A stretch of DNA of 64,000 nucleotides, taken from contig JASAMV010006906.1 of NCBI GenBank assembly GCA_030248065.1, forward strand, positions 1-64,000, read 5' to 3'. The notes beneath the pieces were generated by a model. The model was not told the origin of the DNA, ran no database searches, and was given only the letters and a program-made list of their open reading frames with translations. Below are positions 25,812-55,649 of this stretch, one piece after another; within the stretch, counting starts at the first letter, position 1, and every line of letters begins with the position of its first letter. Both the position numbers and the translations under genes were made by a program. The stretch comes from Rhynchonema sp. JSB1_4 (Eukaryota; Nematoda; Chromadorea; Monhysterida; Xyalidae).

Positions 25812-25828
25812 ACATTGAGACACATAAA

Positions 25829-26434: not shown

Positions 26435-26456
26435 CTTGCGTAAATTTTCTTGGGCC

Positions 26457-26497: not shown

Positions 26498-26509
26498 TTT
26501 GCGTTTTTA

Positions 26510-27115: not shown

Positions 27116-27145
27116 CGTGGCCGCGTGCGGATGTGATTATTGGGC

Positions 27146-27249
27146 GGCAGGAGCCCTTTTTTTATTTATTTTAATTTTATTATTTTTTTTGTTATTTTTC
27201 ACGTAAGTTTTTTATTTTTTTGTGGGCTCCTTAAGTTGACTTTATTCCA
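27146..27249 (-). promoter_or_regulatory. Intergenic motif copy 6 with long A-rich hairpin loop
   Basis: GGAGCCC (27150-27156) and GGGCTCC (27224-27230) form an inverted pair around a T-rich (plus strand) loop of 67 nt. On the minus strand GGAATAAAG contains the TAA stop of the upstream gene and CTCCTGCC precedes the next ATG. Confidence 0.55.
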
Positions 27250-27748: not shown

Positions 27749-27812
27749 TGTGATGGCTTGTTTATTGAGCACGCGATTAAGATTTTGAATGTCTTATCGC
27801 GTGTGCCTATGG

Positions 27813-27829
27813 GGCAGGATTTTTTATTC
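27813..27829 (-). promoter_or_regulatory. Intergenic motif copy 7
   Basis: Minus strand GAATAAAAAATCCTGCC, with the TAA stop of the upstream gene (27824-27826) inside GAATAAA. Confidence 0.65.
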
Positions 27830-38330: not shown

Positions 38331-41300
38331 ATGACACTCCTTTGCGCCGTGGAAAGCAGGTATGTACGAGCGCATGATGTCAATTATGAAGAAGATGATC
38401 AAAGCAGCGGCTGGCAAAAGGCTTTTACGTTGGATGATTTCAACGCTCTAATCGAAGTCGAGGCAATGATGATTCTCGCCGTCGTCGTTATGCTGATCCA
38501 GCATTCAAAGTCTCCCCGTCGACTTCCTGCACCAGGTCGCGAATGTGGCCGTCCGATTCGAAATATGACCCGGACTCGAGGAAGGCCTCATTCGACAGAA
38601 AAAATTGTCAAGGAAAATGGGCAAGCAGCTCAAGAATTTGACATGGCACACCTGTCCGACAGAGTACTGACATCTCTGCGTGAGCGTTCAAATGCAATCA
38701 TTTCGCAGAAAAAAGGCGCCGTTGAAATGCAACCGAAGGTTGGTGCCGTGGTGCTACTCGATGACGCTAATGTACCACGGGGCTGTTGGAAATTGGCCAG
38801 GATCGTTCAGTTGTTCCGTGGCGAGGACGGACAGTGCCGTTCCGCGGAAATCGCGTTGGCAAACGGCCATTTGCTGACCCGATCGATTGGCCATTTGATT
38901 CCGCTCGAATTGTCCGACGAAGATGAAGAAAGATTGGAATCAAAAGAAGAAAAGAAATTGGAATCGGCGCAAACACAAGCTGAAGAAAAGAAAATGGAGC
39001 CGGACGCTCCAACGTTGCGTCGTTCCGAACGATTGAAAGCCAAAGGAACGGGCGCAAATACGGCACTTGTGGCGGCCATGGCTGTGTTGTTCTGTCTGTC
39101 GCCTGTGATGGGCGAACATTTCTTGCCAGGCCAATGCTCGAACCTGACCGGTTACGAGCAGTTGAATCAACTACGTGCTGACTATTGTGTCGATTCGAGT
39201 TACGTTCTGTTCCGCAACAAAGAGGCATTGTTGTGTCGGCTGCCTCTAACGTGCACGAATGGCACCAAAGTTCTGAACGGTGCATGTTCAGACAAATGTC
39301 AGTGTCCATCGTGGGCACAAGGCTGTGTTCCGCGATCAGACGACGACCACTTGAGGAAGAGTCATCCCGTTGATGACAAAGTTTTGAATTCGATCAAACC
39401 CGATGTTTGTTCGTTTGTTGAAAACAGCGATTGTGACCCTGAACCGAAAAGCAAGTTCGTTCCTCAAGTCGAATTGGCCGATGGTTCGTTGACGTTTGTT
39501 GATCGATTAAACATTAAAGTGTTCGAAACTACAAAGGATGACGTCGTGTGTGTCGGAAACCACGGTATGGGAAACATAACCGGCACACCAGACTACTGTC
39601 AGACGCACAATTGCACGGAAACGGCAACGAGACTCTGTTACTACCGTTTCCAGGAGCGAGCCGTTTTGTTAAACGATGTCGGGCAATCTGTGTCTGTGTT
39701 TGCTTGGGGCATGAAAAATGTGACGTACTACGGTCACCTGACAAAGCGGGCTCCAAAGATGGCTTCGTGTGACGTATGTAATGTGCAGTGCGTGCAAGGC
39801 GGAATCGAAGTTGTCGTGTCGCCCCATCTCTCGCTACTTGAACTGTGCTCTGGGGCATTATGTTTTCGTGAATCGAATCCGCCACCGAGGTCAACGTTTC
39901 TATTCTCGCCTGAAGTGTCGATGCATGACTACGATGTTCATGTGCAGGCGTGGCAAAAGGGCGAAGTCGTGTGGTTTCGCAATATCAGTTGCAACAAAAA
40001 TCCGTTCTGTGAGACCATCAAGTGTACGTTCTGTTCGGAGATGGTCGAAAATTCGCACTGTTTCCCAACCTACGTGATCGTTCTGTGCGGGTTGATGGCA
40101 TACGGTGTGTTGACGCTCATTCTGTTGTTCCTCATGTGTGTACCGAAAGTTCGTGAAAGGACAATGTCCATGACAATATCGTGTTGGGAACATTCGCGAA
40201 AATGTTGTTCGCGCGTCAACTGTTGCATGTCGAAACCGATTGAATCTACCAGAGCAACAGACAAATGTGATGAAGAGTGTGTCGAAATGAATCCGGTGGC
40301 CCCGGATACCGCTGATCGAGTTCGAGTGCCTCGTTCAGTTAGTGCTGCCACGTCATTATTCTTGTTGATTATCGTTGTGGCAAGCATGGCGCAAAGTGCT
40401 TCTGCGTGTTATGATGTTGTCACCGTGACATCTGAACAAGAAGAATGCCTGCAAGGACATGGCAGTCCTGAAAAGTGTGAAATTCAGGACACTGTGAGAT
40501 TGGCGGTGCCTCCAACTGGTCAAGTGTCATGTTTATTGTTGCAATCCAAGAACGGAGAACCGCTCGGAACGCTCTACATCGAAACAAATTCGGTAGACTT
40601 GGTGTGCAAGAAAGATACCGAGTTCTATTCGAGGTCATACAAAATGCAGACGGACAGTGTGAAACGTTGTGATGGTGCTGGAAGTTGCACGGGAACGACT
40701 TGTGTCGACACGTTGCCCACAAGTCAGATTGAAGAATTGAAATCGAGCTCACAGCATCCAGGCTTCACATTTTGCACTTCGTCACCTGGTTGTTGGCTTG
40801 AAGGATGTCGGCTTTGCACTCCCGGATGTTTGTTTGTCAGAACGTACGTTGTTGCGACATCCGACGTGATCTACGAACGGTTCACATGCCCACAATATGA
40901 GTACCGTGTCTCTGTATCGGTGACATTGCACAAGGCTGGTGAACGATACAATCATGACATGCAATTGTCACCAGGGGTTCCTGTCACGTGGAACAAAATT
41001 CGATTTACTGTCACGTCGATCTCGGCTCCACAAATGCCGATGTTAAACAGCGTGTTCGTGACGGACGGCACAAAAGTGGTGCTGCTTGACCAAAACAACG
41101 CGCAATGGCTGATGTGCGCAAGCAAGCATCATGCCGAAAAACTTGACTGTTTCGTACCCATCGACGTATGTCAGTGTCACCCGAGCAAAAATCAAGTGAC
41201 ATGCGTGTGTGACCAACTGACAATCGAAGAACTGTTCCTACGAGACAATCGAATACTGTCACTTCAGAGCAGTGGCGTAACGTTGATGTTGTCCGAGAAC

Positions 41301-41888
41301 GGCGACGTTGTTGCGCATTTCACGCAATATCTGTCGATGGAACTGCAAGTTTCGATGATGAAGGTGAAATTGAAACCAAAACGGGAACTCAACAGTTGTG
41401 AAATTCAGGCCGAAACTGTTGAGGGTTGCTACAACTGTTTGGTCGGTGCCAAACTTCGTTTGTCGTGCATATCCGATTTCTCGGACACACTGGCGCATGT
41501 TCGTTGTCCCAGCTTTCGGTTTGGTGTTCGGTGCACTCCCGGGGGGGAGGTGAACGACATACGAATTCACTTCAACTCGCCGAAAGTGAGCGAGAAATGT
41601 ACCGTGTCCTGTGGAATGGTTGAAACAACGTTCAGTTTGGCCGGAAAACTGGCGTTCGTTAGCAAGAAACAGTACGGTTTGCGGGACTCAGGAACATTCG
41701 AGCTTTGCGAGCCACCGCGCGCGCCGTTTTGCGAGCGTCCGCCGCGCGCAAATCCGCCACGATTCGTGCCGCCACGACCGTGCGATTGGGACACCGGACC
41801 ATTACTACTCTGGCTCCGTTCATTATTCGGGCCATTTGTTTTCGAACCCTTTCGACCTTTTCCCCGACCACCTGACTTTTGGACATGA
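38331..41888 (+). CDS. BEL/Pao integrase C-terminus fused to envelope-like glycoprotein
   Basis: Only the first 190 codons or so are integrase-like. After about 90 frameshifted codons, LSDRVLTSLRER..QPKVGAVVLLDDANVPRGCWKLARIV matches the BEL integrase C-terminal domain (DUF5641 type). The env follows: a hydrophobic signal segment (LVAAMAVLFCLSPVMG), a Cys-rich ectodomain, a membrane span (VIVLCGLMAYGVLTLILLFL), a second signal-like segment (LFLLIIVVASMAQSASAC) and a Cys-rich domain. That domain's pattern matches the phlebovirus Gc (class II fusion) proteins found in nematode BEL elements. The open env of roughly 900 codons is much better preserved than the pol before it. The last 60-65 codons run antisense to the inverted gag and are not native, so the normal C-terminal anchor is absent. 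Confidence 0.8.
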   Translation: MTLLCAVESRYVRAHDVNYEEDDQSSGWQKAFTLDDFNALIEVEAMMILAVVVMLIQHSKSPRRLPAPGRECGRPIRNMTRTRGRPHSTEKIVKENGQAAQEFDMAHLSDRVLTSLRERSNAIISQKKGAVEMQPKVGAVVLLDDANVPRGCWKLARIVQLFRGEDGQCRSAEIALANGHLLTRSIGHLIPLELSDEDEERLESKEEKKLESAQTQAEEKKMEPDAPTLRRSERLKAKGTGANTALVAAMAVLFCLSPVMGEHFLPGQCSNLTGYEQLNQLRADYCVDSSYVLFRNKEALLCRLPLTCTNGTKVLNGACSDKCQCPSWAQGCVPRSDDDHLRKSHPVDDKVLNSIKPDVCSFVENSDCDPEPKSKFVPQVELADGSLTFVDRLNIKVFETTKDDVVCVGNHGMGNITGTPDYCQTHNCTETATRLCYYRFQERAVLLNDVGQSVSVFAWGMKNVTYYGHLTKRAPKMASCDVCNVQCVQGGIEVVVSPHLSLLELCSGALCFRESNPPPRSTFLFSPEVSMHDYDVHVQAWQKGEVVWFRNISCNKNPFCETIKCTFCSEMVENSHCFPTYVIVLCGLMAYGVLTLILLFLMCVPKVRERTMSMTISCWEHSRKCCSRVNCCMSKPIESTRATDKCDEECVEMNPVAPDTADRVRVPRSVSAATSLFLLIIVVASMAQSASACYDVVTVTSEQEECLQGHGSPEKCEIQDTVRLAVPPTGQVSCLLLQSKNGEPLGTLYIETNSVDLVCKKDTEFYSRSYKMQTDSVKRCDGAGSCTGTTCVDTLPTSQIEELKSSSQHPGFTFCTSSPGCWLEGCRLCTPGCLFVRTYVVATSDVIYERFTCPQYEYRVSVSVTLHKAGERYNHDMQLSPGVPVTWNKIRFTVTSISAPQMPMLNSVFVTDGTKVVLLDQNNAQWLMCASKHHAEKLDCFVPIDVCQCHPSKNQVTCVCDQLTIEELFLRDNRILSLQSSGVTLMLSENGDVVAHFTQYLSMELQVSMMKVKLKPKRELNSCEIQAETVEGCYNCLVGAKLRLSCISDFSDTLAHVRCPSFRFGVRCTPGGEVNDIRIHFNSPKVSEKCTVSCGMVETTFSLAGKLAFVSKKQYGLRDSGTFELCEPPRAPFCERPPRANPPRFVPPRPCDWDTGPLLLWLRSLFGPFVFEPFRPFPRPPDFWT

Positions 41889-43909: not shown

Positions 43910-44482
43910 TTACAACTGATTCAGAGCCGTGGACGTGGCCAATTCGAGCTCGAAACACGACAAACACTGCGTGATGAAGAGTGTGAGAGTCCTTTTCTCG
44001 GGACACCACTGTTGGCTGCGTTTGCTCGTTTTCGTGTAGCAGACGTCACAGAAACTGGACGTGTGCACAGCAGCGCGAGCCTCCGTGAACTGTGAATCGA
44101 GAAGCTTGTAACCGCGCTGTGTGACCGGTTTTTGCACGGACATGGGCGTTGAAAATGCGACACTGATGGCGTTGATCAATTTTGTGATATGTACACAACG
44201 TTCACACAATGTTATGGCCGAGCTGACTTCGTCCGAATTGGAATAGTGCATCGGTTTCCTGTCAGCATTTTGTCTGCGGCAATAACGACACACGGCAAAG
44301 CTGTACGTGTGGCGTTTCACCGGTTTCACCATGGTTTTCTGACGCACACTGGTCAGTCTGCGTGGGTGGAATTTTCTGACTGATTTCGGTGTGCTGTGAA
44401 TCGGGGTGCGATACATTTTGCGGCGTTTTGGGCTCGGAGAATGCTTCTCCGGCGTAATATCAGCATTCAATGTGATATCCAT
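43910..44482 (-). CDS. CxxC zinc-binding accessory protein, family B copy 2
   Basis: A 190-aa protein from ATG 44482. A basic Pro/Ser/Arg-rich head of about 60 residues (PSPKRRKMYRTP) could be a nuclear localisation region. FAVCRYCRRQNA, SSAITLCERCVHITKL, SFCDVCYTKTSKR and ITQCLSCFELE follow. The four Cys pairs align one for one with the protein at 27242-27748, though the genes lie 16 kb apart on the same strand. This indicates one duplication with later insertion of other material between them. Role unknown; zinc-binding is inferred from spacing. Confidence 0.7.
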   Translation of the reverse strand: MDITLNADITPEKHSPSPKRRKMYRTPIHSTPKSVRKFHPRRLTSVRQKTMVKPVKRHTYSFAVCRYCRRQNADRKPMHYSNSDEVSSAITLCERCVHITKLINAISVAFSTPMSVQKPVTQRGYKLLDSQFTEARAAVHTSSFCDVCYTKTSKRSQQWCPEKRTLTLFITQCLSCFELELATSTALNQL

Positions 44483-44623: not shown

Positions 44624-44815
44624 ATGAAACGCTTGTACTACACTTGGATTGTTCTGGAGCCGTGCCAAGGGGGTGTACCGAAAGTAGTTGGCACCGCGCC
44701 AAAATTGTTCGAAACGAAGCAAGCGGCGTTACAACACGCATATGTGCATGCAAGACCGAATGAAACACAAAGAGTTGATGTAATCAGCATGGAACTCGAG
44801 TTTAGCTTGTGGTAA
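44624..44815 (+). CDS. Small ORF of unknown function
   Basis: A 63-aa frame (MKRLYYTWIVLEPC) without a recognised domain. It converges on the polymerase gene and overlaps its stop by 14 nt. Gene-dense surroundings make it plausible but unproven. Confidence 0.4.
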   Translation: MKRLYYTWIVLEPCQGGVPKVVGTAPKLFETKQAALQHAYVHARPNETQRVDVISMELEFSLW

Positions 44816-47800
44816 AGCCATACGGAAGTGAATTGTGTGTATTTGGAATGTGCCGTCTTTTCGTGAAGTGATTTCTCATTTTCTTCACGATATATTTCGT
44901 GAAAACTTGTTGTTGTCTGTTTCGTGTGAAAACAAGCTGGCGTGATTCCGTTATTGTTTGTGACATGACCATTTGGTGCATTTGAATAAAACTGATTCCT
45001 GCATTCTCAGAAACCCTGAAACCTTTAGCTCTCACTTCATGCCGTTCTTCGTTGCTGGTTTTGCTGCGCAATCTGTACGAGTATGTTTTTGGGCTGCTAA
45101 TTACAATCTCGGTCATTTCGTATCCATCCTGAATTTCATTCGTCATACTGCCCAGCATACCTATGGGTCGCGATACTGCAACAATTGGGTTCGGTTCACC
45201 CCTTCTGTGGGTGAATATGACAGCATCTGTGTCAACATAAAGTAGCCGCGTACCCAATAACGACATGTGTTGATGCAAAAACATACGCGCCAAGGCACAC
45301 AGAGTGACCGCGTGCACCTTTGAGGCACTTACAAGTGGGGTTGCGAGGTGTTTATCTTTGCGGTAACTGACACACATTATATCTGACGAGACTGGGACAA
45401 CATTGGTGACTCTATTGGCGGGGCTGTGGATGGTCGTTAAATATTTGCCTGGATCACTGAAAAATAATGTCGCAATTCTGTCCCATGTTTCGGCAAGCTT
45501 ACCATATTGAGCTACACAGCTGAGCTTGGCCGTGGCACGTTTGGCGGGATTATTTTCAATTTCGTCTGGCTGTAATTTTATTCCTTCGTGTTCCCACAAA
45601 AGATCACAATAACGTTGTTTCTCCTCGCGTGTTTGCACATTTGCGGGATAAGGAGAACTTTTGACTTTCTCGGCAAAAAAGTGAGTTATGTAACTGGCAA
45701 ATAAGCCACCCGTTTTTGTCTTTGTGTCGTACTGTAGTGTTTTGGGAAACGTCCATACTTCATAAACATCACGAATTTCATAACCCAATAGGACCGCATA
45801 TTGAAGCTCCTGTGTGGCAAATCCATATGGGCCAATAAGTTTTTCTTTTTCAGAATGCGTGCATTTGTCAGCCTGGTTTTTGGTCAATCCACAAGCTTTG
45901 CAGCACACGTATATGTTCCTGCCCTCATTGTCCCTCAGCGGCAGCAATGGGAGCAAGATATCGCTGGGAGCTTTCACTGTACAAAAAACAACCCCATTAT
46001 ACTGGCTAATGTCTCCAAAATTTTCTGTCACCACTTTTGGACGTCCTATTGGGAACGGGTAGTACTTCTGAATGTATCCGTACAAGCTGACGGCGTCGTA
46101 ATAACAAAGTTCCCAATCGTCATCAGCCTTGGCATACCTGCGGAAAACTTCAACTCTGCCTGCAAATAAACTTTTATCAATGTCCAGAGTCGGTGCAACA
46201 TTAACTGTTGGCTCCCACAATTTATAGGCATCTGTTTCGCGGATTGTCTGAAACTCGCACTCCCAAATTCTGACGTGGTGCGGAACCAACGAGCGAATTT
46301 TGAGGTCGCGTTCCAACGTTTTCTGATAGAGTTCCGCAAATGTGTGCTTTCTGCCTTTCATTCTCTCATGAGAAGGCATACACAAATTGTGTCCGTGTAT
46401 TGCACACCCGTGGAACGAGAAAGCAACTGAAACTTTGGTTCCGTTTAGTATCGCACCATCTAGTTTGAAAGATCCGACGGAAATTTCGCGATCATTTGAC
46501 GCCATGTGAATTTTCTGGCCGCGTTTATGTTGCTCCCACATTAACCAAAGTTGGGATACCTTACTGTACATATCACCATGTCGCCACCCAGAAATGGGCA
46601 TCAAAGCAATGCTGTTTTTTGGCATATATTTCATGCGGAAAGTTTTATCACAAATATTTGGCAAACTGACGGCCTCGGAAAACGGGCAAAGTCCTGTCAA
46701 TGATAAAAAGTTTGTCCTGAACGCCGTGCATCCAAGTTGCAACAACTTGGCATCGGCCAGACAATAGGTGTGAAGCGTTGTTTGCATGCAAAACGGCTGC
46801 TTTTCAGCCTCGCTGTACCACTCCAAAAAAGCAGCTTTTCTCTTTGCTGTCATGTTTTCGGGCGAAAAATACTTCATTTCGGGGATTTTTCCTTTGTAAT
46901 GTAACGTTTCACTTTTCAAGAAGTCGTATGGGAAAAATTGTTTGACCTCGCTCAGCCCCAACATTGAGGTAAATCGGTCAAGTGAAAAATTCAAATAACT
47001 GAATGAATCTATAAACTTCAATGTTTTGTATGTCATGGCCAGCACCTTTGTGCCTCTCATGATGCATTTGGGTACGGTGCCCGTTTTCAGCATTTCACGT
47101 AAGACGAACAGCATATCGAATGACTGAGCGTTATGGGCAATAAAAACTGCATTGCGTTGTGCCAAGACCCACTGCGTGAACTGCACAATCGATGTTTGAC
47201 CTTGGAAAACCTTGATTTCGTTTCCGGCACAACCACAACTTTGTTTCAGACACTCGAAAATAGCCACAATGTACAAAACCGAATGTTCGTAAATATTGGG
47301 AACCGTTTGTGTAGCCGTTGTTTCGAAATCATAATAGATTATGTGCTCTTTTTTCTGGGCCAGACTTTTGTACTGTGGCATATAGCATGTGTGAGATTGT
47401 TCTTGGTACGCGCGGCACAAAAAGCACCACTGTGTGTAACATTTGTGATCGTGTGAAGGTCTGATTTGGTAAATTTTGCCGCACTTCTTGCATCTTTGCA
47501 GCGTTTCGCATATAGATTGTCGTTTGCGGTTGTTTTTTGTGACTTTGATGGAATGGTTTATGAAGCAATCGTTAGGCATAGTTCTGTTACATTTTTGGCA
47601 CGTTTTCATTGATCCTTGCTTTTTGCAGCGGGCTTCAAAACAATATTCACACTTTTCCTTCTCGCACAAGTGACGCCGTCGGTTTTGGAAACTTTTCTGG
47701 CATGAAAAGCAATACCCGTGACCGCCAAAAAAACTTTGAGCTGTGATCAGTTGATAGTGAGCGTTGCGAAATACTAAATTAATGCGCTTGTCTCTCCCTT

Positions 47801-48719
47801 TCAGACCAATAAAAATTGGCGCGTTTGCATTGTCACCATCAAATAAGTTTATTTGAAAATCACTGAAATATTCTTGTATTTGCATAATTTGTGTGCGGGT
47901 AACCATTGTTCCTTTTTCAAATCGCATAATGTCGCGAATTTTTTCGGCTTCTGCTTTTTGCTTCTTTTGGTTTCGCAACAAGTTTCTGAACTGTTTTCTG
48001 CCCTCCAAAAGAGCCATGCCAAGTGCCAAACTTTGAAATGCACACAAATTGTCTGTACAATTTGGGCTAACCGAAGTTCTTCCACCTGCCAGATTTTGCA
48101 CTCTGACCAATCTGACACGCAAAATATCCGAAATAGAAACACTTTGTCTGCTTTCCAATACCCTACCAAGCATGGCGAGCAGCTTGTCGGCTTTTGCTTC
48201 TTTGTAATTCTCAAATTGTGCGATTATAGGCCTGTTGAAGTCTGGATGGTCAATTGTGAGACCTATTTTGTCGGTGGGCGTTGCATCAGAACAAACTTGT
48301 TTTATACTGGACCTTATTGCGTCGGTCAGCAATGTTTCCGGATTTTCTCCGCGGTTGGTTATTTTGAGCTCATATTGGGACGCAAAAGTGTGAAATTTTT
48401 TGACATAGACGTGGTCCAGCATTCGCAAAGTCCATCGTTTTGGTTGTGAGCCGCCGGGCATCATTTCGGGACTTTCTGGAGTTTGCGGGCGTCGTGCGAC
48501 CATCTCTGGACTAGGGGGAGGAGTGGGAGTTTTTGCGCCTCCGGTTTGTTCATTACCAATTTCCATCATCTGTGAATCGGTAACGTACTGTTGTGTGTCA
48601 TAATCTGGAGGTTGCGGTATCCATCCCGTTTCATTAACGATTGGTATCATTTCCGAGTCTTTGACGTAACCTTGGGAATCATATTCAGGTGCCTGAGGCA
48701 CCCACCCGTCCGCTTCCAT
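44802..48719 (-). CDS. PolB: Protein-primed family-B DNA polymerase of the element
   Basis: About 1305 aa, unspliced, from ATG 48719 (the longer reading starts with GTG). The N-terminus holds two diverged copies of a roughly 28-residue unit, GWVPQAPEYDSQGYV and GWIPQPPDYDTQQYV. A Polinton polymerase N-domain follows (KIGLTIDHPDFNRPII). Then a Cys/His zinc region (about 345-455), Exo I YYDFETT (about 472), Exo II FIAHNAQSFD, Exo III YCLADAKLLQ, palm motif A YYDAVSLYGY, motif B KLSCVAQYG and motif C LLYVDTDAV. All catalytic acidic residues are in place. Such enzymes replicate linear genomes using a terminal protein and copy the inverted repeats. The start lies 34 nt from the divergent TBP-like gene, which suggests a shared promoter. 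Confidence 0.95.
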   Translation of the reverse strand: MEADGWVPQAPEYDSQGYVKDSEMIPIVNETGWIPQPPDYDTQQYVTDSQMMEIGNEQTGGAKTPTPPPSPEMVARRPQTPESPEMMPGGSQPKRWTLRMLDHVYVKKFHTFASQYELKITNRGENPETLLTDAIRSSIKQVCSDATPTDKIGLTIDHPDFNRPIIAQFENYKEAKADKLLAMLGRVLESRQSVSISDILRVRLVRVQNLAGGRTSVSPNCTDNLCAFQSLALGMALLEGRKQFRNLLRNQKKQKAEAEKIRDIMRFEKGTMVTRTQIMQIQEYFSDFQINLFDGDNANAPIFIGLKGRDKRINLVFRNAHYQLITAQSFFGGHGYCFSCQKSFQNRRRHLCEKEKCEYCFEARCKKQGSMKTCQKCNRTMPNDCFINHSIKVTKNNRKRQSICETLQRCKKCGKIYQIRPSHDHKCYTQWCFLCRAYQEQSHTCYMPQYKSLAQKKEHIIYYDFETTATQTVPNIYEHSVLYIVAIFECLKQSCGCAGNEIKVFQGQTSIVQFTQWVLAQRNAVFIAHNAQSFDMLFVLREMLKTGTVPKCIMRGTKVLAMTYKTLKFIDSFSYLNFSLDRFTSMLGLSEVKQFFPYDFLKSETLHYKGKIPEMKYFSPENMTAKRKAAFLEWYSEAEKQPFCMQTTLHTYCLADAKLLQLGCTAFRTNFLSLTGLCPFSEAVSLPNICDKTFRMKYMPKNSIALMPISGWRHGDMYSKVSQLWLMWEQHKRGQKIHMASNDREISVGSFKLDGAILNGTKVSVAFSFHGCAIHGHNLCMPSHERMKGRKHTFAELYQKTLERDLKIRSLVPHHVRIWECEFQTIRETDAYKLWEPTVNVAPTLDIDKSLFAGRVEVFRRYAKADDDWELCYYDAVSLYGYIQKYYPFPIGRPKVVTENFGDISQYNGVVFCTVKAPSDILLPLLPLRDNEGRNIYVCCKACGLTKNQADKCTHSEKEKLIGPYGFATQELQYAVLLGYEIRDVYEVWTFPKTLQYDTKTKTGGLFASYITHFFAEKVKSSPYPANVQTREEKQRYCDLLWEHEGIKLQPDEIENNPAKRATAKLSCVAQYGKLAETWDRIATLFFSDPGKYLTTIHSPANRVTNVVPVSSDIMCVSYRKDKHLATPLVSASKVHAVTLCALARMFLHQHMSLLGTRLLYVDTDAVIFTHRRGEPNPIVAVSRPIGMLGSMTNEIQDGYEMTEIVISSPKTYSYRLRSKTSNEERHEVRAKGFRVSENAGISFIQMHQMVMSQTITESRQLVFTRNRQQQVFTKYIVKKMRNHFTKRRHIPNTHNSLPYGFTTS

Positions 48720-48780
48720 TTTTACAAATGAAAATCGCGCACAGCGCACTTTAATGCTTTTTGTGACCTACTTTGCCGCA
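48720..48780. promoter_or_regulatory. Divergent promoter region between PolB and TBP-like gene
   Basis: Only 34-61 bp separate the two outward start codons (48719 and 48754 or 48781). The stretch includes GCGCACAGCGCAC and a TTTAATG. No canonical TATA box is seen. Confidence 0.4.
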
Positions 48781-49314
48781 ATGGTTGCACTGACCAATGT
48801 GGTGGCCAAGGCTAAGCTGTCACGGTCTCTTGATCTGGCTGCTTGCGCCAAAAAGTTAGGAGGCAAGTACGAACCTCAAAAAATTCAAATGATGCGTTGG
48901 AGGGTTGCGCTACCTAAATGTACTTTCATGTTTTTTGCAAACGGTTCATTTATAGTTAACGGAGTGAGGTCAATCAGTGCGGCTCACACTGCGATAGAAC
49001 ACATGTTACAACAGCTGACCTCAAAATGTGGATTGAATGCACATTTGCAGCCCAATACATTCGCCGTTTGCAATATGATTTATTGCGGCTCATTGGGGTA
49101 TTGCGTTGACCTTGTACATTTGAATAACAGTAGAGTGTTACAGTTTGAAGCAGAGTTACACAACGGGGGTTTGATGCGCATTGGGAACGTTACAGTAATT
49201 TTATTTGCGAACGGTAAATTTCTTTTGAAAAACGTCAAGTGCGAGTCAGAAATGCTCAGTTGCGTGTCATACTTACAACGGGCATTAAAGTGCAACATTT
49301 CAGCCGCAAAATAA
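48754..49314 (+). CDS. TATA-binding-protein-like factor (two TBP repeats)
   Basis: A 186-aa protein (177 aa if ATG 48781 is used, where homology begins). Two tandem TBP saddle repeats are visible. Repeat 1: LTNVVAKAKLSRSLDLAACA, YEPQKIQMMRWRVALPKCTF, then MFFANGSFIVNGVRS. Repeat 2: FAVCNMIYCGSLGYCVDL, then GNVTVILFANGKFLLKNVKC. Both keep the TBP signature of a hydrophobic strand, F-x-N/S-G-K/S and an NG/KN turn, with the same order and spacing as the eukaryotic TBP core (about 180 aa), and lack the variable N-terminal extension. TBP nucleates RNA polymerase II/III initiation. Here it may direct host polymerase to viral promoters. A host-derived pseudogene is unlikely, since it is unspliced, open and fits tightly between PolB and the next gene. 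Confidence 0.85.
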   Translation: MLFVTYFAAMVALTNVVAKAKLSRSLDLAACAKKLGGKYEPQKIQMMRWRVALPKCTFMFFANGSFIVNGVRSISAAHTAIEHMLQQLTSKCGLNAHLQPNTFAVCNMIYCGSLGYCVDLVHLNNSRVLQFEAELHNGGLMRIGNVTVILFANGKFLLKNVKCESEMLSCVSYLQRALKCNISAAK

Positions 49315-49315: not shown

Positions 49316-49615
49316 ATGTCTCAACACTTGCTTCTCGTTTGGTGTTTTATGCTTGGGATTACGGTTGGTACATTATTATTTGCCCTCTCTCTTTACATCC
49401 AACCGTGCTCCATTCCGCAAGATTACACAGACATTTTTTGCTCAAACGCACATGCAGTAGAACACACATTGAAGGACAATACTTTGCGCTTTCATTCTAC
49501 AAACAAAGCAACCACTATCGGGTGCGCGGCCTATGTGCGAAACGTTGCGTTACAGCACAAGTGTAGTTTTGTGGGTATACACAATGACACATTGTATGTT
49601 CAAACCTCTGGCTGA
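49316..49615 (+). CDS. Small membrane protein, unknown
   Basis: A 99-aa protein whose ATG follows the TBP-like stop by one base (TAAAATG). One N-terminal hydrophobic span (about residues 6-29, LLVWCFMLGITVGTLLFALSLY) is followed by a domain with five Cys after it, suggesting a type II or signal-anchored protein with disulphides. No homologue is recognised. Its place at the head of the virion gene block suggests a structural or entry-related role, which is inference only. Confidence 0.65.
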   Translation: MSQHLLLVWCFMLGITVGTLLFALSLYIQPCSIPQDYTDIFCSNAHAVEHTLKDNTLRFHSTNKATTIGCAAYVRNVALQHKCSFVGIHNDTLYVQTSG

Positions 49616-50231
49616 ACCGCTGGACCCTAGAATAAGAACACCAGCACGTATTATTGTCAGTGCGGCCAGTCAAGGCGGAAAAACACAAATTTGTAAAGAA
49701 CTCATACGACGATGCGACACCATCTTCGACCGACCGCCAGGGTGTATTATGGTGTGTTATAAAGTTAACCCGCAACAGTACTATGATCTTCAAGATGACC
49801 CTCGTGTTGTGTTGAAAGAAGGCTGGCCCGATCCTCAAGTTTTGGCCAATGTTCAAAATCCACCATCTCTGCTGCTCATCGATGATATGATAGACAATTT
49901 AAAAAATGCTGTTGATTGGTTCGTCAGATTGTCGCATCACCTTGACACGTCAGTATTACTAACAACGCAAGAATTGTACCACAAAGATATGAGAATCTTG
50001 AGGCTGAATTGCACAGGGTTTCTGTTTTTGAAAAACCCCAGTGACGGGTCATCCATTAACACGATTTCCAGGCAGTTAAATTCACGACAGAGAAATAAAA
50101 TGCTCAGCGCGTATGCTGATGCCACACGAGAGAACTATTCGCATTTGTTTGTGGATTGTAGTTTGAAGACCGACGACCGTTTTCGGTTACGAAGTTGCAT
50201 AACCAGCGTGCCTCAAATTTATTATCTCTAA
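49596..50231 (+). CDS. ATP: FtsK/HerA-type genome packaging ATPase
   Basis: About 211 aa from ATG 49596 (MFKPLAEP); alternative in-frame ATGs are at 49584 and 49533. Walker A reads IIVSAASQGGKTQICKEL near residues 17-34, and Walker B PPSLLLIDDMID near 86-97. A sensor-like TSVLLTTQELYHKD and an arginine-rich tail follow. Size and layout match the A32-like packaging ATPases of Polintons and adintoviruses, which pump DNA into preformed capsids. It overlaps the preceding small membrane-protein gene by 20 nt and abuts the next (TAAATG). Confidence 0.85.
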   Translation: MFKPLAEPLDPRIRTPARIIVSAASQGGKTQICKELIRRCDTIFDRPPGCIMVCYKVNPQQYYDLQDDPRVVLKEGWPDPQVLANVQNPPSLLLIDDMIDNLKNAVDWFVRLSHHLDTSVLLTTQELYHKDMRILRLNCTGFLFLKNPSDGSSINTISRQLNSRQRNKMLSAYADATRENYSHLFVDCSLKTDDRFRLRSCITSVPQIYYL

Positions 50232-50543
50232 ATGAAACGTCTCAGAAAACACCGCCTTTTTCTTGAGTTTCTCTTGAAATCAGGCCGAAAACGCCGCCCC
50301 GCAATTAAAAGCGCCAGTGACGATCAGATAAAACTTATTTCTGATATTTCCATTAATATTCTCAGCAACATTCTTGACATTGACAAGTCAACGTTGAGAA
50401 AGCTCAAAAAATTCAAAAAAGTTGTCCGACTTTTGGCCGATACGTCCGTTTCCATAAAGCGCAAGCGCAATGCTCTCATTAAATCTGCACCCAGTCTCCT
50501 TTCCCTAATTATTCCGCCAGCTTTAAGATTATTGCAAAAATGA
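50232..50543 (+). CDS. Conserved basic Polinton protein (about 100 aa)
   Basis: A 103-aa protein with a basic start (MKRLRKHRLFLEFLLKSG), a central helical stretch (DDQIKLISDISINILSNILD), a Lys-rich segment (STLRKLKKFKKVVRLLAD) and a hydrophobic end. The pattern RKH..FL..L, then an AILNVLxG-like helix, then RLLADxxVSxKxKR is one I recognise from small proteins next to the integrase in many animal Polintons. Their role is not established; a DNA-binding core or scaffold is possible. The next gene starts inside its stop (ATGA). Confidence 0.7.
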   Translation: MKRLRKHRLFLEFLLKSGRKRRPAIKSASDDQIKLISDISINILSNILDIDKSTLRKLKKFKKVVRLLADTSVSIKRKRNALIKSAPSLLSLIIPPALRLLQK

Positions 50544-51145
50544 GCGACGTGCAGAAATGGTGGTTATACCCGCATGCTCTCGGACAATCACCGGCTCAAC
50601 CAGTTTTAAATCAACTCGACTATGACATGCAAAACATTTTGAAAAAGAATATCCCAGCCGACCAGAAAATAAAACTTTTTCATCAAGTGTTGGGAAAACA
50701 TGTCACGGTCAATGAAGGTAATAAAATGTACAAGACCCCGCTGTTGGAACACTCTGAAAAGTTGAAATCTGATGAAAAGCCGTCTTATGGACTAATTCCC
50801 ACAAAAAAGGGCAAAAAGGCCGCAGAAATAATAGAAACTTACATACCCGATCTGTTTGATTCAGATGACAAACTTTTAGTCAAAGGCGAGCCAGTACCAG
50901 GAACAAACCGTTGGGACATATTAAATCATTTAGTTTCTGGGAGACAGAAACAAAAACCGCCCCCGACCGGAACAGGATATGTGCTAAACGAGCTTCAAGA
51001 ACGTAACGTACCGGAAACAGTGCTTTTGAACCCGAATTTACGCACTCCAGTTCCAAAAACTCCAGTCCCGCTCACATCTCCCCGCGCGCCAAAAACCAGA
51101 CGTCGGATGCCACGAACAAAGCGAAAATTTGATGAACAAGAATGA
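50540..51145 (+). CDS. Polinton-conserved protein upstream of integrase
   Basis: A 201-aa protein. The N-terminus (MQNILKKNIPADQKIKLFHQ) fits a short helical motif common to proteins at this position in Polintons. The middle holds GLIPTKKGKKAAEIIETY and VKGEPVPGTNRWDILNHLV, typical of the family's '...G.V..GSN..DLI..' region. The C-terminus is Pro/Arg/Lys-rich. A virion or core function is likely but unproven. Coupled by ATGA overlaps on both sides to the basic protein and the integrase. Confidence 0.65.
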   Translation: MSDVQKWWLYPHALGQSPAQPVLNQLDYDMQNILKKNIPADQKIKLFHQVLGKHVTVNEGNKMYKTPLLEHSEKLKSDEKPSYGLIPTKKGKKAAEIIETYIPDLFDSDDKLLVKGEPVPGTNRWDILNHLVSGRQKQKPPPTGTGYVLNELQERNVPETVLLNPNLRTPVPKTPVPLTSPRAPKTRRRMPRTKRKFDEQE

Positions 51146-52068
51146 ATAAAATTTTAACCAAACTTTATTATTCAGGCCCCACAAAGTATGCAGGTCAGTC
51201 GGCCATTTTACGTGCTGCCAAGCAGAAAAATAAGAAAGTAACACTTAAGAATGTACGAGACTTTTTGGAACGTCAATCCACATACACTCTTCACAAACCT
51301 CTGCGCCACAAATTCAAAAGAAACAAGGTTTTTGCGTTTGGCATAGACCACACTTTGCATATGGACACAGCACACATGATACGCTTAGCCGAGTTCAATG
51401 ACAACGTGCGTTATTTGTTGTGCGTGGTTTGCTGTTTCAGCCGGTACTTATGGGTGGAACCTCTTGAGAACAAACGTCCGGAAACAATAGCCCCAAAATT
51501 GCGGCACATACTCGATTCCACTCGCCAAACGGTCATGTTTTTGTATAGCGATAATTCAACAGAATGGGCTGGCGCTGTAAAGCAGCTTCTGAATGAAAGG
51601 GGCATTGAACATATTGTTTTGAGGACAAGTGCTTTCCATGCTTCAATAGTGGAGCGCAGGATATTAGATTTGAAACGAAAAATATACGCTCACATGACTC
51701 ACAGAAACACGCTGAGGTACATTGATAATTTACAGGCTATATGTCAGGCTCTGAATAACTCTTATCACCGGATCCTCAAACGAACACCGGCATCCATTAA
51801 CGCTTCGAACGAGAGTGAAGTTTTGAAAGAACGCACGAAACAAGACCAACCAAGCGGTCCGCCCAAATTTCATGTGGGTGACAAAGTCAGAATTCAGGTC
51901 GAGAAAACGGCATTTCAGAGAGGATACACAAAAAACTTCTCAGACGAAATTTTCACAATTCACAGAGTTCTGAAACACGAGCCATGTCTTTATGAGTTGA
52001 AAGATGTTTTCGGCGAAGTTTTGCAAGGCAAGTGGTACGCGTGGGAATTATCTCGGATACGCCAGTAA
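51142..52068 (+). CDS. INT: Retrovirus-like integrase (Polinton type)
   Basis: A 308-aa protein with an rve catalytic domain. First Asp in TLHMDTAHMIRL (about residue 73), second in LYSDNSTEWAGAVKQLL (about 134), third acidic residue in HASIVERRILDLK (about 172). This completes the D,D-35-E triad, although the second motif is SDN rather than the usual TDKG. The family signature RYIDNLQAICQALNNSYHRI follows, and then an SH3/chromodomain-like C-terminus (FHVGDKVRIQ, then GKWYAWELSRI). It integrates the linear genome through its terminal repeats. The stop TAA precedes the next gene's ATG by 67 nt. Confidence 0.9.
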   Translation: MNKILTKLYYSGPTKYAGQSAILRAAKQKNKKVTLKNVRDFLERQSTYTLHKPLRHKFKRNKVFAFGIDHTLHMDTAHMIRLAEFNDNVRYLLCVVCCFSRYLWVEPLENKRPETIAPKLRHILDSTRQTVMFLYSDNSTEWAGAVKQLLNERGIEHIVLRTSAFHASIVERRILDLKRKIYAHMTHRNTLRYIDNLQAICQALNNSYHRILKRTPASINASNESEVLKERTKQDQPSGPPKFHVGDKVRIQVEKTAFQRGYTKNFSDEIFTIHRVLKHEPCLYELKDVFGEVLQGKWYAWELSRIRQ

Positions 52069-52135
52069 ACTTACGCTGAAGTGTGCTCCAATTCTTGGAT
52101 TATTCGTATTATCGTTACTTCGCTTCATTACAAAA

Positions 52136-53464
52136 ATGGACCATTTTACAGTAACTCTAGTCAGCAATTCGTTTACAAACAAAACTGAAAGTCACTCAGA
52201 TTTTCGCATTTTGTTGCCTCGTCCGCTTGATTTGTCTAGCGGTTTGTGGGATGTTGGATTGAGGGAGATAAGTTTTACAAAAAGCTGGAACAATGTTGGT
52301 GGACACATCTTTGTTCACACAAAAGATGGAGTTTTCTCTAAATTCATTCCGTTTGCGTACTATGACACCATTGAGCAAGTTTTGAATGCAATAAATAAAA
52401 GCAACATGACCAAAACGGACGAAATCCCGCTTAGTTTTCGCGCACGTTTGCCTCGCGCGACCAAGTCCCAGCCCTTAAAAAGTCCAACCTCTGACCCAAC
52501 CAAAAGTCCGACCTCTGGCCCGGTTGTCGTCCGTTCAAAAAGTCCACCCAAAAGTCCAACCTCTGACCCAACCAAAAGTCCGATCTCTGGCCCGGTTGCC
52601 GTCCGTTCAAAAAGTCCACCCAAAACTCCAACCTCTGACCCAACCAAAAGTCCGACCTCGGGGCCGGTTGCCGTCCGTTCAAAAAGTCCACCCAAAACTC
52701 CAACCTCTGACCCAACCAAAAGTCCGACCTCGGGGCCGGTTGCCGTCAGTTCAAAGGGTACAACCAAAAGTCCGGTGCCCGTCCGTTCAAAAAGTCCGAC
52801 CTCTGGCCCGGTTGGCGTCAGTCAAAAGGGTCCGATCTCTGGCCCGGTCACCGTACGTTCAAAAAGTCCGACCTCGGTACCGGTTGCCGTCAGCTCAAAG
52901 GGTACAACCAAAAGTCCGGTCTCCGTGCGTACAAAAAGTCCGACCCCCGCTCGAGCAAAGTCTAATGCTCCAAGAGTGGTTGTCACTCCTCCGGTACCGA
53001 AACGTCCTCGACAATCCCAAGATCCAGTCATAAAGTTTGAAATGAAAAACGGCAAAGTTCGCTTGGTCAGCGGATTCAAAGTTTTAGGTGTGTATCTTTC
53101 TCCCTCGATAAAGTACGCACTTGGATTTTCGGACCCTCTCATTCTCGGTACCGATATTGCGAAACATCAGCCAGATTTGAGCGGAGGAATCACGTCTCTT
53201 ATGATTTACTCCGACCTAGTCACGCACAGCATCGTGTCGGACACTTACGCACCCCTTTTACGTGTGGTGGCCATTAAAGACGGCATCAAGTTTGGTCAAC
53301 GTGTTACAGTCGGCTATGAAAACCCTTTGTTCGTCGGAGTGCTGAAACATTACTTTGATTCCATAGGATTGAAAATTCTTACAAGTGCTGGCGAACCAGT
53401 GCACTTATCCATTCCAGAAACAGTGGTGGTTCTTGAGTTCAGGAAAAGGTCCATGTTTGGCTAA
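52136..53464 (+). CDS. Conserved Polinton structural candidate with repeat insert
   Basis: Start at ATG 52136 (MDHFTVTLVSNSFTN). The longer reading from 52004 overlaps integrase and is rejected. The N-terminal block FTVTLVSNSFTN, RILLPRPLDLSSGLWDVGLR, EISFTKSW is the conserved opening of a protein found beside the capsid genes of many animal Polintons, and a matching C-terminal domain (about 300-440) is well composed. Between them lies a Ser/Pro/Thr/Lys-rich segment of roughly 150 residues built of KSPTSDPTKSPTSGPV repeats. The role may be a minor capsid or vertex protein (penton or fibre position), which is inference. The repeat insert could form a flexible stalk. Confidence 0.65.
   Translation: MDHFTVTLVSNSFTNKTESHSDFRILLPRPLDLSSGLWDVGLREISFTKSWNNVGGHIFVHTKDGVFSKFIPFAYYDTIEQVLNAINKSNMTKTDEIPLSFRARLPRATKSQPLKSPTSDPTKSPTSGPVVVRSKSPPKSPTSDPTKSPISGPVAVRSKSPPKTPTSDPTKSPTSGPVAVRSKSPPKTPTSDPTKSPTSGPVAVSSKGTTKSPVPVRSKSPTSGPVGVSQKGPISGPVTVRSKSPTSVPVAVSSKGTTKSPVSVRTKSPTPARAKSNAPRVVVTPPVPKRPRQSQDPVIKFEMKNGKVRLVSGFKVLGVYLSPSIKYALGFSDPLILGTDIAKHQPDLSGGITSLMIYSDLVTHSIVSDTYAPLLRVVAIKDGIKFGQRVTVGYENPLFVGVLKHYFDSIGLKILTSAGEPVHLSIPETVVVLEFRKRSMFG
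52470..52960 (+). repeat. 72-bp in-frame tandem repeat
   Basis: Units of 72 bp (24 codons), phased at 52482, 52554, 52626 and 52698, repeat about four times. Shorter partial units based on AAAAGTCCGACCTC extend to about 52945. All keep the frame open. Confidence 0.9.
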
Positions 53465-53650
53465 ATGCGTCACCCAGTATTCGTTGGTAGAAAGTTCCAG
53501 CGTGGTCGAGGATTTGGAAGCTCTTTTTTGCAAGGCTTCGTGGATGGTTTCTTTCCGCTAGCAGGCAGAGCAGCAAAACTTATAAAACCGCACTTCGTCA
53601 AAGCGAGCATTAAAGGGAATCGCAAACGACGTCGTGACGCGCTTTCATAA
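53465..53650 (+). CDS. Small adenovirus pVI/pX-like or membrane-active virion protein
   Basis: A 61-aa protein with a Gly/Phe/Arg-rich start (GRKFQRGRGFGSSFLQGF), a short hydrophobic helix (FFPLAGRAAKLIK) and a basic tail (KGNRKRRRDA). Polintons and adintoviruses carry such small proteins next to the capsid gene, compared to adenovirus minor or core proteins. It abuts the upstream gene (TAAATG), and its stop shares a base with the next start (TAATG). Confidence 0.55.
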   Translation: MRHPVFVGRKFQRGRGFGSSFLQGFVDGFFPLAGRAAKLIKPHFVKASIKGNRKRRRDALS

Positions 53651-53790
53651 TGCCAAAACGTATTCGCCGACGTAAACCAAGACGAAAACGCAGACAAGTT
53701 GGAGCAGGAAAACGTCGGGCCTTTGGTTTCACTCCATTTGTGAGACGCTTTCGCAAATATGGTCCAAAACGAGGCCGCAAGCGGCGCTAG
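53650..53790 (+). CDS. 46-aa arginine-rich core-like protein
   Basis: ATG 53650 sits in the TAATG of the previous stop, and the frame ends at TAG 53788-53790. Roughly half of the 46 residues are Arg or Lys (MPKRIRRRKPRRKRRQ at the start, KRGRKRR at the end), with a small aromatic centre. This is protamine-like and resembles adenovirus core peptides that condense DNA in the capsid. The last 32 nt overlap the capsid gene in another frame. The short length makes it easy to miss, but its coupled position and composition argue that it is real. Confidence 0.65.
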   Translation: MPKRIRRRKPRRKRRQVGAGKRRAFGFTPFVRRFRKYGPKRGRKRR

Positions 53791-55063
53791 TTTTGTGCCT
53801 CCTTGTCTTGACGTTTTCCAAACCTTACCACAGCAAGTTGCAATTCAACGCACTATTTGTCAACAAATACGGCCCACCAATGCTTTGACAAAAAACTCTT
53901 CCGTAGAGTTCCATGTTGCGGGCTCAAATTGGTGGATTAACACAGACCAGATTTATTTGCGCACCTTAGTTCGCTTGATAAAACATCCAAACAAGAATAT
54001 TGCTGAAACAGATGAATGCAGCGTTATTAACTATCCAGCCCTTTGTCTCTGGGGACAAATGCGCGTGTCGCTCAACAACACACTTGTTGAGAATCTCCAA
54101 GAATTTGCGTTTCACTCATATATATCGACTTTGTTGAACCACGACGTCAGTTTCAAAGATGGTATTTTGAAGGCTGGTTCCTTCATTTTGGACGACGACA
54201 AGCATTTTGACACAAAAAACAGCAAATCGTACAAAGCACAAAAACAGTTCTTCAAAGCAAGCAAAACCAGGGAACTAGTGGCACGATTATCAACAGGGGG
54301 TGTATTCAACTTGGGACGTCGGATCCCTCCGTTTGTGAGTCTAAAAATTGAACTCTGGCCAAACCCAGACTCAGTGAACACAATTACTTATGACCCAAAC
54401 ACCATCAACAGTTTCGGTTTGGAAATAGTTGATTGCAGTCTTTTTGTGGAAAAGAATTTGGTTCTAGACTCAGTCAATGTAGCGATGGAGACCAAATTGC
54501 GCTCTCGACCCATGGTGTTTCCAATGAATAAAACCGTGCTGCGGTCAATTTTAATACCCGAAGGTGTGAGCGAGTCACCAAATAACACTATTTTCCGTGG
54601 TCCGCAACCCAATCGCATTTTAGTAGCAGTAATGGAAGATGATGTTTTCCGTGGCTTGAACAGCAAAAATCGATTTGTTTTTGGAAACCACGATTGTTCA
54701 TTTGTCTCGGTGAGAGTAGGTTCAGAGGTATATCCTTTCGAATGTGAATCTACACCAGCCGATTACGATAACGACCGATACGCTCTAAACTTTTTACGCT
54801 TGTGGAGAAGTTTGTGCTTGGACAATGAAGCTTGGGGTGAACTAGATTTTCACAGTTTCAAGAACAATTTTTGCTTCCACATAATCGATCTATCACAATC
54901 ACAGTTGCCGGTCTGGGAATTGTCACGTTACTCAGATTGCTCCGTAACAATAAAGTTCTCCAAAAATACTTCCAAGTCATTGCGGGCCTTAATTTTGGCA
55001 GAAACCCAATGCGAAATGCTCATTAACGCCGAGAGAAACGTGATGTTTCAACCAGAGATATGA
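53759..55063 (+). CDS. MCP: Double-jelly-roll major capsid protein
   Basis: A 434-aa protein. The order of elements fits the Polinton major capsid family (the F54H12.2-like proteins of nematodes). LDVFQTLPQQVAIQ lies near the start, then SSVEFHVAGSNWWINTDQIYLRT and LWGQMRVSLNNTLVENLQEFAFHSYISTLL. ELVARLSTGGVFNLGRRIPP, LEIVDCSLFVEKNLV, NNTIFRGPQPNRILVAVMEDDVFRG and a closing LILAETQCEMLINAERNV come after. Trimers of this protein form the icosahedral shell. The frame is intact end to end and is overlapped by the core-like peptide upstream and the protease downstream (ATGA), so its expression is probably coupled. Confidence 0.9.
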   Translation: MVQNEAASGASFVPPCLDVFQTLPQQVAIQRTICQQIRPTNALTKNSSVEFHVAGSNWWINTDQIYLRTLVRLIKHPNKNIAETDECSVINYPALCLWGQMRVSLNNTLVENLQEFAFHSYISTLLNHDVSFKDGILKAGSFILDDDKHFDTKNSKSYKAQKQFFKASKTRELVARLSTGGVFNLGRRIPPFVSLKIELWPNPDSVNTITYDPNTINSFGLEIVDCSLFVEKNLVLDSVNVAMETKLRSRPMVFPMNKTVLRSILIPEGVSESPNNTIFRGPQPNRILVAVMEDDVFRGLNSKNRFVFGNHDCSFVSVRVGSEVYPFECESTPADYDNDRYALNFLRLWRSLCLDNEAWGELDFHSFKNNFCFHIIDLSQSQLPVWELSRYSDCSVTIKFSKNTSKSLRALILAETQCEMLINAERNVMFQPEI

Positions 55064-55566
55064 ACACACGGGATCTAAAAACGTTCATTAACCTTCACAC
55101 ACGGCTTCGGGCTCGTGTGTCCGTTTCGGCCAGAAATTGCATGCCAAAATTGCGACCCGGTTTCGCAGTTATAGCAAACACGGACATCAGTGGAAATCCA
55201 GGCAAACATTGGGTGGTATTGACGTCAACAAAACGTGGCAGGTACTTTTTTGATTCGTTTGGTAGACCGCCGTTTCATAAAGAATTCAAAGCCCGATTTC
55301 ATAACACGAAATGTGTTCAGTCGCGCTCCAGAAACACATGCGGTCAACATTGTTTGTTCTTTTTGTACAATTTTTATGTGTTAGGACTTTTACCGTCATC
55401 GATCATGAAATTGTATTCTAATGATTTGTTAATTAATGATTATAATGTCGTGACATTTGTGAAGAATAAAAAAAACTCCTGTCGTGGTGCAAGCAGCACA
55501 CAGTCTTACACCGCACCTGTTGTCTCGCTTGACTGCACACAGCAAGCTGCTCTCTTGCAGACCTGA
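55060..55566 (+). CDS. PRO: Adenovirus-type (C5) maturation protease
   Basis: A 168-aa protein. Catalytic His in GKHWVVL (about residue 48), Asp in YFFDSFGRPP (about 64), and Gln/Cys in NTCGQHCLFFLYN (about 93-105), the order of adenovirus proteases that cleave capsid and core proteins during maturation. The last 30-odd codons lie inside the right TIR (CRGASSTQSYT...), so the C-terminus is probably repeat-derived, or the true stop was lost. AATAAA in the TIR at 55466-55471 lies within the frame and would supply the 3' end. Confidence 0.85.
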   Translation: MNTRDLKTFINLHTRLRARVSVSARNCMPKLRPGFAVIANTDISGNPGKHWVVLTSTKRGRYFFDSFGRPPFHKEFKARFHNTKCVQSRSRNTCGQHCLFFLYNFYVLGLLPSSIMKLYSNDLLINDYNVVTFVKNKKNSCRGASSTQSYTAPVVSLDCTQQAALLQT

Positions 55567-55649
55567 TAATTCAGGCAACTTTTGCCTTCAATCTGGCACC
55601 TTGGATGTGTAATCTTCAAAAAATGTCACAATACACATCCAAGTACTAC
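55464..55649 (-). repeat. Right terminal inverted repeat
   Basis: Reverse complement of 23242-23447, lacking about 14 bp near the inner third and differing at a few positions near the inner end. It contains the end of the protease frame and GAATAAAAAAAACTCCTG (55464-55481), the mirror of the left-TIR motif. Confidence 0.95.
55466..55485 (+). promoter_or_regulatory. Intergenic motif copy in right TIR
   Basis: AATAAAAAAAACTCCTGTCG on the plus strand. It has the same layout as the motifs between accessory genes, facing out of the element, at the end of the last plus-strand gene. Confidence 0.55.

Follow-up and report, generated by a model that had tools for sequence, protein, structure and literature searches.

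A TATA-binding protein in a Polinton/adintovirus-like element of a nematode genome, and a candidate variant TATA box before the element's key genes

No promoter reader is more basic to archaea and eukaryotes than TATA-binding protein (TBP), and a Polinton-type mobile element that carries one could run a private gene programme without encoding an RNA polymerase. Given a possible TBP gene in a 64,000-nucleotide stretch (hereafter, the window) of the genome of the nematode Rhynchonema sp. JSB1_4, which an earlier note had assigned to a capsid-bearing mobile element, we asked whether the gene is a true TBP, whether it belongs to the element, and whose promoters it might serve.

The frame is open and unspliced, as the note had read it, and codes for 186 amino acids (48754-49314, forward strand). 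The Pfam TBP family PF00352 matches it in two stretches, i.e., both saddle repeats (E 2.8e-23, 82 bits, cut-off 22.9), and matches the shorter coding part 48781-49311 at E 2.3e-23. A phmmer search of the PDB returned 35 distinct sequences at E <= 1e-3 (best 7.1e-14), all named TBP, TFIID or TBP fusions with the exception of an ECU04_1440 protein; identity to solved TBPs is 22-25%. The predicted structure (AF2, pLDDT 90.4), which the note had proposed as a check, contains the two-fold saddle, and a Foldseek search with this model gave TBP-containing entries throughout ranks 1-44, with no unrelated best match; VIA also supports TBP. The claim of a TBP homologue with both saddle repeats is thereby confirmed, with one correction concerning the start: in a 20-sequence alignment the relatives begin at a methionine followed by an asparagine at about position 5-6, which makes M10 at 48781 the likely start (177 aa) and leaves 61 nt between the start codons of TBP and of the neighboring polymerase gene (polB). 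TBP and polB lie on opposite strands and diverge, again as described in the note, among the following features:

23242-23384, forward strand: left arm of a terminal inverted repeat, 143 nt, 100% complementary
23467-28249, reverse strand: array of nine Cys-rich open reading frames (ORFs, by eye) inside the inverted repeats
43910-44482, reverse strand: Cys-rich, zinc-ribbon-like (by eye) ORF adjoining polB; 27 genome matches, several on polB contigs
44802-48719, reverse strand: family B DNA polymerase (polB), PF03175 4.9e-28
48781-49314, forward strand: TBP gene, likely coding part (PF00352, AF2, Foldseek, VIA); start from the 20-sequence alignment, ORF open from 48754
49316-49615, forward strand: small ORF (TM gene), N-terminus hydrophobic as judged by eye; after TBP in 7 of 8 group-1 loci (see below)
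49596-50231, forward strand: P-loop ATPase-like ORF; the family alignment places its start here, and Walker A/B motifs were read by eye
50232-50543, forward strand: conserved basic ORF
50540-51145, forward strand: further ORF between the basic ORF and the integrase
51142-52068, forward strand: retroviral-type integrase, rve 4e-5, NCBIfam IS481 4.1e-11
52136-53464, forward strand: ORF in the penton/minor capsid place, labelled by position only
53465-53650, forward strand: small pX-like ORF, carrying the capsid-block box
53650-53790, forward strand: very basic 46-aa ORF
53759-55063, forward strand: presumed major capsid gene (MCP-like), 80 matches in the host genome
55060-55566, forward strand: adenain-like cysteine protease, Peptidase_C5
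55507-55649, reverse strand: right arm of the terminal inverted repeat, 143 nt, 100% complementary

The polymerase family PF03175 is, we take it, that of the protein-primed type. The integrase matches to rve and IS481 are significant, yet both fall under the curated cut-offs. In the ATPase-like family, AAA_22 matched three of seven members (best 7.4e-5) and Pox_A32 one of seven (0.0017), while Peptidase_C5 was found at E <= 0.1 in eight of ten protease members (best 7.9e-5; window copy 0.0046, below the cut-off), the best PDB profile match of the protease (E 0.012) being a chain named Protease. For the capsid genes the names pX, penton and MCP are putative labels. The penton-place ORF had no Pfam match (52004-53461) and no PHROGs match (52136-53461), and the window copy of the presumed MCP had no Pfam match; in the MCP family two unrelated Pfam families each match one of ten members (E 0.13 and 0.2), the best PDB profile match has an E of 0.39, and a single-sequence model reached a pLDDT of 31.5. 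A search of 5.8 billion proteins with the presumed MCP found none, and IMG/VR scans with the MCP, polB, the integrase and an MCP alignment returned no relative. Thus, of the phrase "capsid-bearing mobile element", the link to an element holds (see below), whereas the identity of the presumed MCP as a double jelly-roll capsid protein is unconfirmed by Pfam, PHROGs, PDB or fold. The penton-like ORF also contains tandem 36/72-nt repeats of the KSPTSGPV type (52406-52909).

The 143-nt inverted repeats probably mark the ends of the element; by eye, the bases flanking the arms differ and no 6-bp target-site duplication was seen, the outer edge of the arms being uncertain. About 29.4-43.4 kb is occupied by other material, including a DUF1759 gag-like ORF and a phlebovirus-type glycoprotein ORF. 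Between the inverted repeats, a 1185-aa ORF (38331-41888, forward strand) combines a piece of DUF5641, which we take to be a retroelement pol end, with a phlebovirus-type fusion glycoprotein (PF07245, 1.5e-79), and may be a BEL-type retroelement with an envelope, or cargo. One member of the Cys-rich array (27269-27694) matches the ORF at 43910. We also observed eight copies of TCCTGCC before and between the Cys-rich ORFs (22347-27819, reverse strand), often after AATAAA-like runs; the motif occurs 12 times in the window, compared to 5.0 expected (a count reached in 0 of 100 shuffles), and could represent either a 3'-end signal or a second class of promoter.

Across the host genome (203.9 Mb, 5,747 contigs), PF00352 gave 63 matches, which merge to 34 places on 31 contigs. 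Twenty-one of these places have an MCP-like match at most 16 kb away, and one more (on contig C3294) adjoins an integrase and a polymerase; for this comparison the MCP list was complete (80 matches), and 31 of 123 integrase and 13 of 38 polB matches were picked. The 31 TBP contigs and the 65 MCP-like contigs overlap in 21, where 0.35 would be expected among 5,747, the places not all being independent owing to near-identical contigs (C1690/C3007; C441/C4829/C4666). Twelve places had no element neighbor: the host gene, one on C409, and ten on C1228, C3532, C4064, C4666, C4829, C5308 and C880. The host's own TBP gene, on C798, is spliced (three exons match by search, four by eye) and scores 313 bits to human TBP. 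Conversely, 44 of the 65 MCP contigs carry no TBP match, so that TBP is not found in all these elements, some such contigs ending too early to tell. Broken, half-length or cut TBP copies occur on C3294, C5308, C3532 (three) and C1228 (one). The three on C3532 are near-identical half-copies (115 aa) with no element gene beside them in the lists of MCP, integrase and polB matches; one that was looked at has TATAAAAG 39 nt upstream. Of note, the exact nematode SL1 22-mer is absent from the genome, and its COX1, which reads under the invertebrate code, looks nematode-like.

A tree, also proposed in the note, placed the element TBPs in a single clade. Among 36 proteins (IQ-TREE, PMSF), 21 intronless TBPs form one group (support 97/90), 18 of which have an MCP-like match near, and three (C880, C4064, C1228) no listed element gene near. 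Host and human TBP sit together elsewhere in the tree, and archaeal TBPs and eight viral TBPs fall outside the element group. In searches for relatives elsewhere, the single TBP found none among 5.8 billion proteins, and a 20-sequence TBP profile found three among 1,409 candidates, of which P0001 is nearest to archaeal TBPs in the PDB, and P0002 and P0003 look archaeal. With P0001 as query, IMG/VR yielded 11 viral TBP loci. Eight of these entered the tree; L071 and L079 were dropped as sharing match coordinates, identity and E-value with L070 and L076, and L075 for a stop in frame. Within the element clade, group 1 comprises eight proteins including the window TBP (support 100/99) and group 2 comprises 13 (97/92), the placement of C4647 being unsure because of its long branch. 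In all eight group-1 loci TBP adjoins polB and diverges from it; in group 2, for instance on C69, C4194 and C3234, it sits on the far side of the MCP gene, on the opposite strand.

The element TBP is kept under purifying selection. Twenty open copies align full length, and in seven of ten pairs, those with a computable dS, dN is lower than dS (six pairs with dN 0.16-0.37 and dS 1.4-2.3, and the C441/C4064 pair with 0.018 and 0.129). Moreover, TBP and MCP identities go together: across seven group-1 elements r is 0.90 (16 of 5,040 permutations as high), and with C69 added 0.80 (3 of 5,000). As a separate observation, a splice-donor-like GTGAGT or GTAAGT stands 6-18 nt before the TBP ATG in 9 of 18 group-2 loci, some of them near-identical copies (L013, L019, L020, L022, L031, L034, L061, L063, L065), and in none of the eight group-1 loci, while in 7 of the 18 group-2 loci TTTCAG precedes that codon by 61-71 nt; these signals suggest spliced transcripts that skip TBP.

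The residues of the saddle were compared in yeast numbering, with the letters checked against human TBP. N69, N159, F207 and E188 are kept in 21 of 21 element TBPs. The window TBP has N69, N159, F116 and F207, with I at F99 and H at F190, i.e., it retains two of four phenylalanines. At T124 and T215, presumably the residues nearest the center of the box, the groups diverge: T124 is N in 7/8 and T215 is K, Q or M in 8/8 group-1 proteins, versus L in 12/13 and T in 13/13 in group 2. Likewise, F116 is F or Y in group 1 (F in 7/8) and W in all 13 of group 2. On the TFIIB surface E186 is kept in 14 of 21, and K138/Y139, on the TFIIA side, in 0 of 21.

Is there a corresponding site in the DNA? The window element holds a candidate variant TATA box at three of its promoters, and one canonical TATA:

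48749-48757, reverse strand: GCATTAAAG, 38 nt upstream of the polB ATG and in the sense of that gene
49282-49290, forward strand: GCATTAAAG, 34 nt before the ATG of the ORF at 49316
53607-53615, forward strand: GCATTAAAG, 43 nt upstream of the start codon of the basic ORF at 53650, ahead of the MCP-like gene
53581-53587, forward strand: TATAAAA inside the pX-like ORF, a canonical TATA that remains and speaks against a clean switch

These three copies, at the polB, TM and basic promoters and in the right orientation, are all that the window contains; shuffled windows held a mean of 0.63, and three were reached in 3 of 100 shuffles. In 77 windows upstream of start codons at group-1-type loci, the most enriched 7-mer at -65 to -12 was GCATTAA (in 16 of 77 windows, where 2.45 were expected; p 2.4e-9, uncorrected for the roughly 16,000 7-mers). 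When the gene classes were divided, which was done after the motif had been seen, [GC]CATTAA occurred in sense in 21 of 25 90-nt windows at polB, TM and basic genes (19 with G) and in none of the 52 others, from six gene classes; these counts come from related elements and are not independent, though dS is high. Broken down by gene, 6/8 polB windows contain it (-16 to -65), as do 7/7 windows of the gene that follows TBP (six at -33 to -35, one at -8) and 8/10 of the basic/capsid block (-18 to -80, with two copies in five). In antisense it occurred in 0 of 25 and 5 of 52 windows. These five lie at TBP and face polB, which disposes of boxes facing TBP itself (5/8 loci); no sense copy lies within 90 nt of any of the eight group-1 TBP genes. 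A [GC]CATTAA box in sense before polB, the gene following TBP and the capsid block is a new finding for the elements nearest the window. The capsid-block copies fall within coding sequence, seven of them in the frame GCA-TTA-A and seven in NGC-ATT-AA (N = A, G or C); two reading frames argue for conservation of DNA rather than protein, and, with the intergenic places, they disfavor mere coding conservation. At one locus (L044, on C2364) TTAATGC recurs downstream of the MCP-like gene in seven copies at about 116-nt spacing, and it also recurs at L043 and L045; the promoter motif there seems to be part of a tandem repeat.

The form of the box follows the TBP subclade. In the block from pX to MCP, GCATTAA is present in 9/10 and TATAAA in 1/10 (the window element) of group-1-type loci, and in 0/9 and 9/9, respectively, of group-2-type loci; in five loci without a detected TBP, chosen from the remaining MCP contigs (group 3), the counts are 1/5 (C3287) and 5/5. 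The ten group-1-type blocks, counted from loci L039-L057, comprise the eight TBP contigs, C78 (18,334 bases), which ends before the TBP place, and C1195, without a TBP match; left out were five near copies, all with GCATTAA (C5236, C3355, C2364, C1973 and C801), and two broken ones (C2211, C3748). Eight of the nine group-2-type loci are on TBP contigs and the ninth, C1525, has no TBP match on its 10.4 kb; left out were C3265, whose block looked degenerate, and C3007, C3154, C2555 and C4647. Up to 120 nt upstream of the TBP gene itself, TATAAA or TATATA occurs in 0/8 group-1 and 12/18 group-2 loci, several of the latter being near-identical and one having only 67 nt. There are exceptions to the pattern: C2279, a group-1 member whose TBP is altered, lacks both boxes in the capsid block and has no [GC]CATTAA at polB, where C991 lacks it too. 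At polB and the basic ORF, moreover, box positions vary from -16 to -80.

Taken together, these results lead us to propose, with a probability of about 0.56, that a true TBP was acquired by a Polinton/adintovirus-like lineage and brings host RNA polymerase II to a variant TATA box. Under this proposal, the lineage would have acquired TBP probably once and long ago, and would keep it as a working gene. The protein would probably take the place of host TBP on element promoters, bending the minor groove at GCATTAAAG in the window element and at TATAAA in the sister subclade, with the window boxes placed 34-43 nt before the ATGs of polB, of the gene block that follows TBP and of the basic ORF at the head of the capsid block. 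Host TFIIB and RNA polymerase II would take over from there, and the element's promoters would thereby be separated from the host's. Hand-over to host TFIIB is proposed because no element contig has a TFIIB match: PF00382 matches in the genome lie only on C5713 and C2790, neither a TBP nor an MCP contig, which disfavors a TBP travelling with its own TFIIB, a diverged TFIIB being possible. Judging from sequence, the TBP would bind the box, and the changes in the two would be linked. The altered box suggests that the element and its close relatives may have a promoter code of their own, and on this evidence the earlier note's overall interpretation is supported: a TBP encoded by a mobile element, to which it could give such a code.

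The alternative that survives best, though we think it unlikely, is that GCATTAAAG is a genuine control site to which host TBP or another element factor binds, or a mark of the transcript start, with the element TBP at work elsewhere. The case for it rests chiefly on C1973 (L045, L100, L101), whose group-1-type MCP is 65% identical to the window's. This contig has GCATTAA boxes in the capsid block. In front of the small ORF that follows TBP in other elements it has GCATTAAAG, 35 nt from the second ATG, and GCATTAAC lies 89 nt upstream of the probable start of polB. PolB and the MCP gene of C1973 point the same way, and no TBP was found on its 63.7 kb by family and protein search, or by profile in two possible stretches. 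C2211 (52.8 kb), similar to C1973 by its hits, has no TBP match either. The box can thus exist without a TBP in cis, which lowers our confidence in the proposal above and raises it in a different reader, for which the many Cys-rich ORFs of the elements offer candidates. Furthermore, at the TM gene only some 34 nt separate the box from the ATG, and leaders would be very short if transcription starts 25-30 nt downstream, as from a -30 TATA box. Against this, the sister subclade has a canonical TATAAA in the corresponding block, GCATTAAAG and GTATAAAAG are alike, with two positions different, and C1973 may have lost its TBP later or use one supplied in trans by another element.

Less probable again is that the TBP acts against the host, titrating or displacing the partners of host TBP (TFIIB, Pol II), and ignores the element's promoters. 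The presence of E188, on the TFIIB side, in every element TBP together with the loss of K138/Y139 would fit such partial partner binding, but the minor-groove asparagines and F207 are invariant, and the element's genes have a box in a TATA-like place whose form differs between TBP subclades. That a host TBP paralogue or relic was captured by chance and has no function in the element we regard as very improbable, the broken and cut copies notwithstanding, given 20 open full-length copies with dN far below dS, a single intronless clade apart from the intron-bearing host gene, and co-inheritance with MCP.

Returning to a TBP that serves its own element, a further-reaching version, which we advance tentatively, is that the two lineages would constitute two orthogonal TBP/box pairs, one with TATAAA and the other with the re-coded GCATTAAAG and a TBP changed at the residues of the box center, C1973-like elements being TBP losers fed in trans. 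If the subclades do match the box types, one genome would offer natural TBP/box pairs for testing a change of the core promoter code, and such orthogonal core-promoter systems, running on host TFIIB and Pol II, would show how the basal promoter code can change.

How does this compare with known systems? With cellular and archaeal TBPs the element protein shares the two-repeat saddle, the asparagine pair, F207, E188 and, in 7/8 group-1 proteins, F116. It differs from them in the replacement of F99 and, in some, of F190, in the altered central threonine pair of group 1, in having no long N-terminal extension, and in being encoded by a mobile element. The element itself resembles Polintons, Mavericks and adintoviruses in its family B polymerase, integrase, terminal inverted repeats and putative adenain-like protease; in the literature found, which covers the field in part, no TBP is described for any of the three.

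Virus-encoded TBP homologues are described in papers on giant viruses and mirusviruses (PMC10132985, PMC11464507, PMC7221094), and the Cymbomonas paper assigns its TBPs to elements that putatively derive from mirusviruses. PMC7221094 reports a TFIIB-like protein in nearly all viruses that bear TBP, and Megavirus encodes RNA polymerase subunits and a TFIIB in addition to its TBP, unlike the element contigs with their lack of a TFIIB match.

The nearest working parallel would be the late system of KSHV, the element TBP being a putative binder of its box. According to PMC12529657, ORF24, a beta-gamma-herpesvirus vTBP, follows the same logic, that of a TBP mimic which uses host Pol II at a non-canonical box, TATTWAA. 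ORF24 differs in being one of six viral activators and in lacking the TFIIB-contact glutamates, whereas the element protein is a plain TBP with E188 kept. The K8.1 promoter of KSHV, given in the same paper, holds ATATTAAAGGG, to be set beside GCATTAAAGGG, the capsid-block box of the window element.
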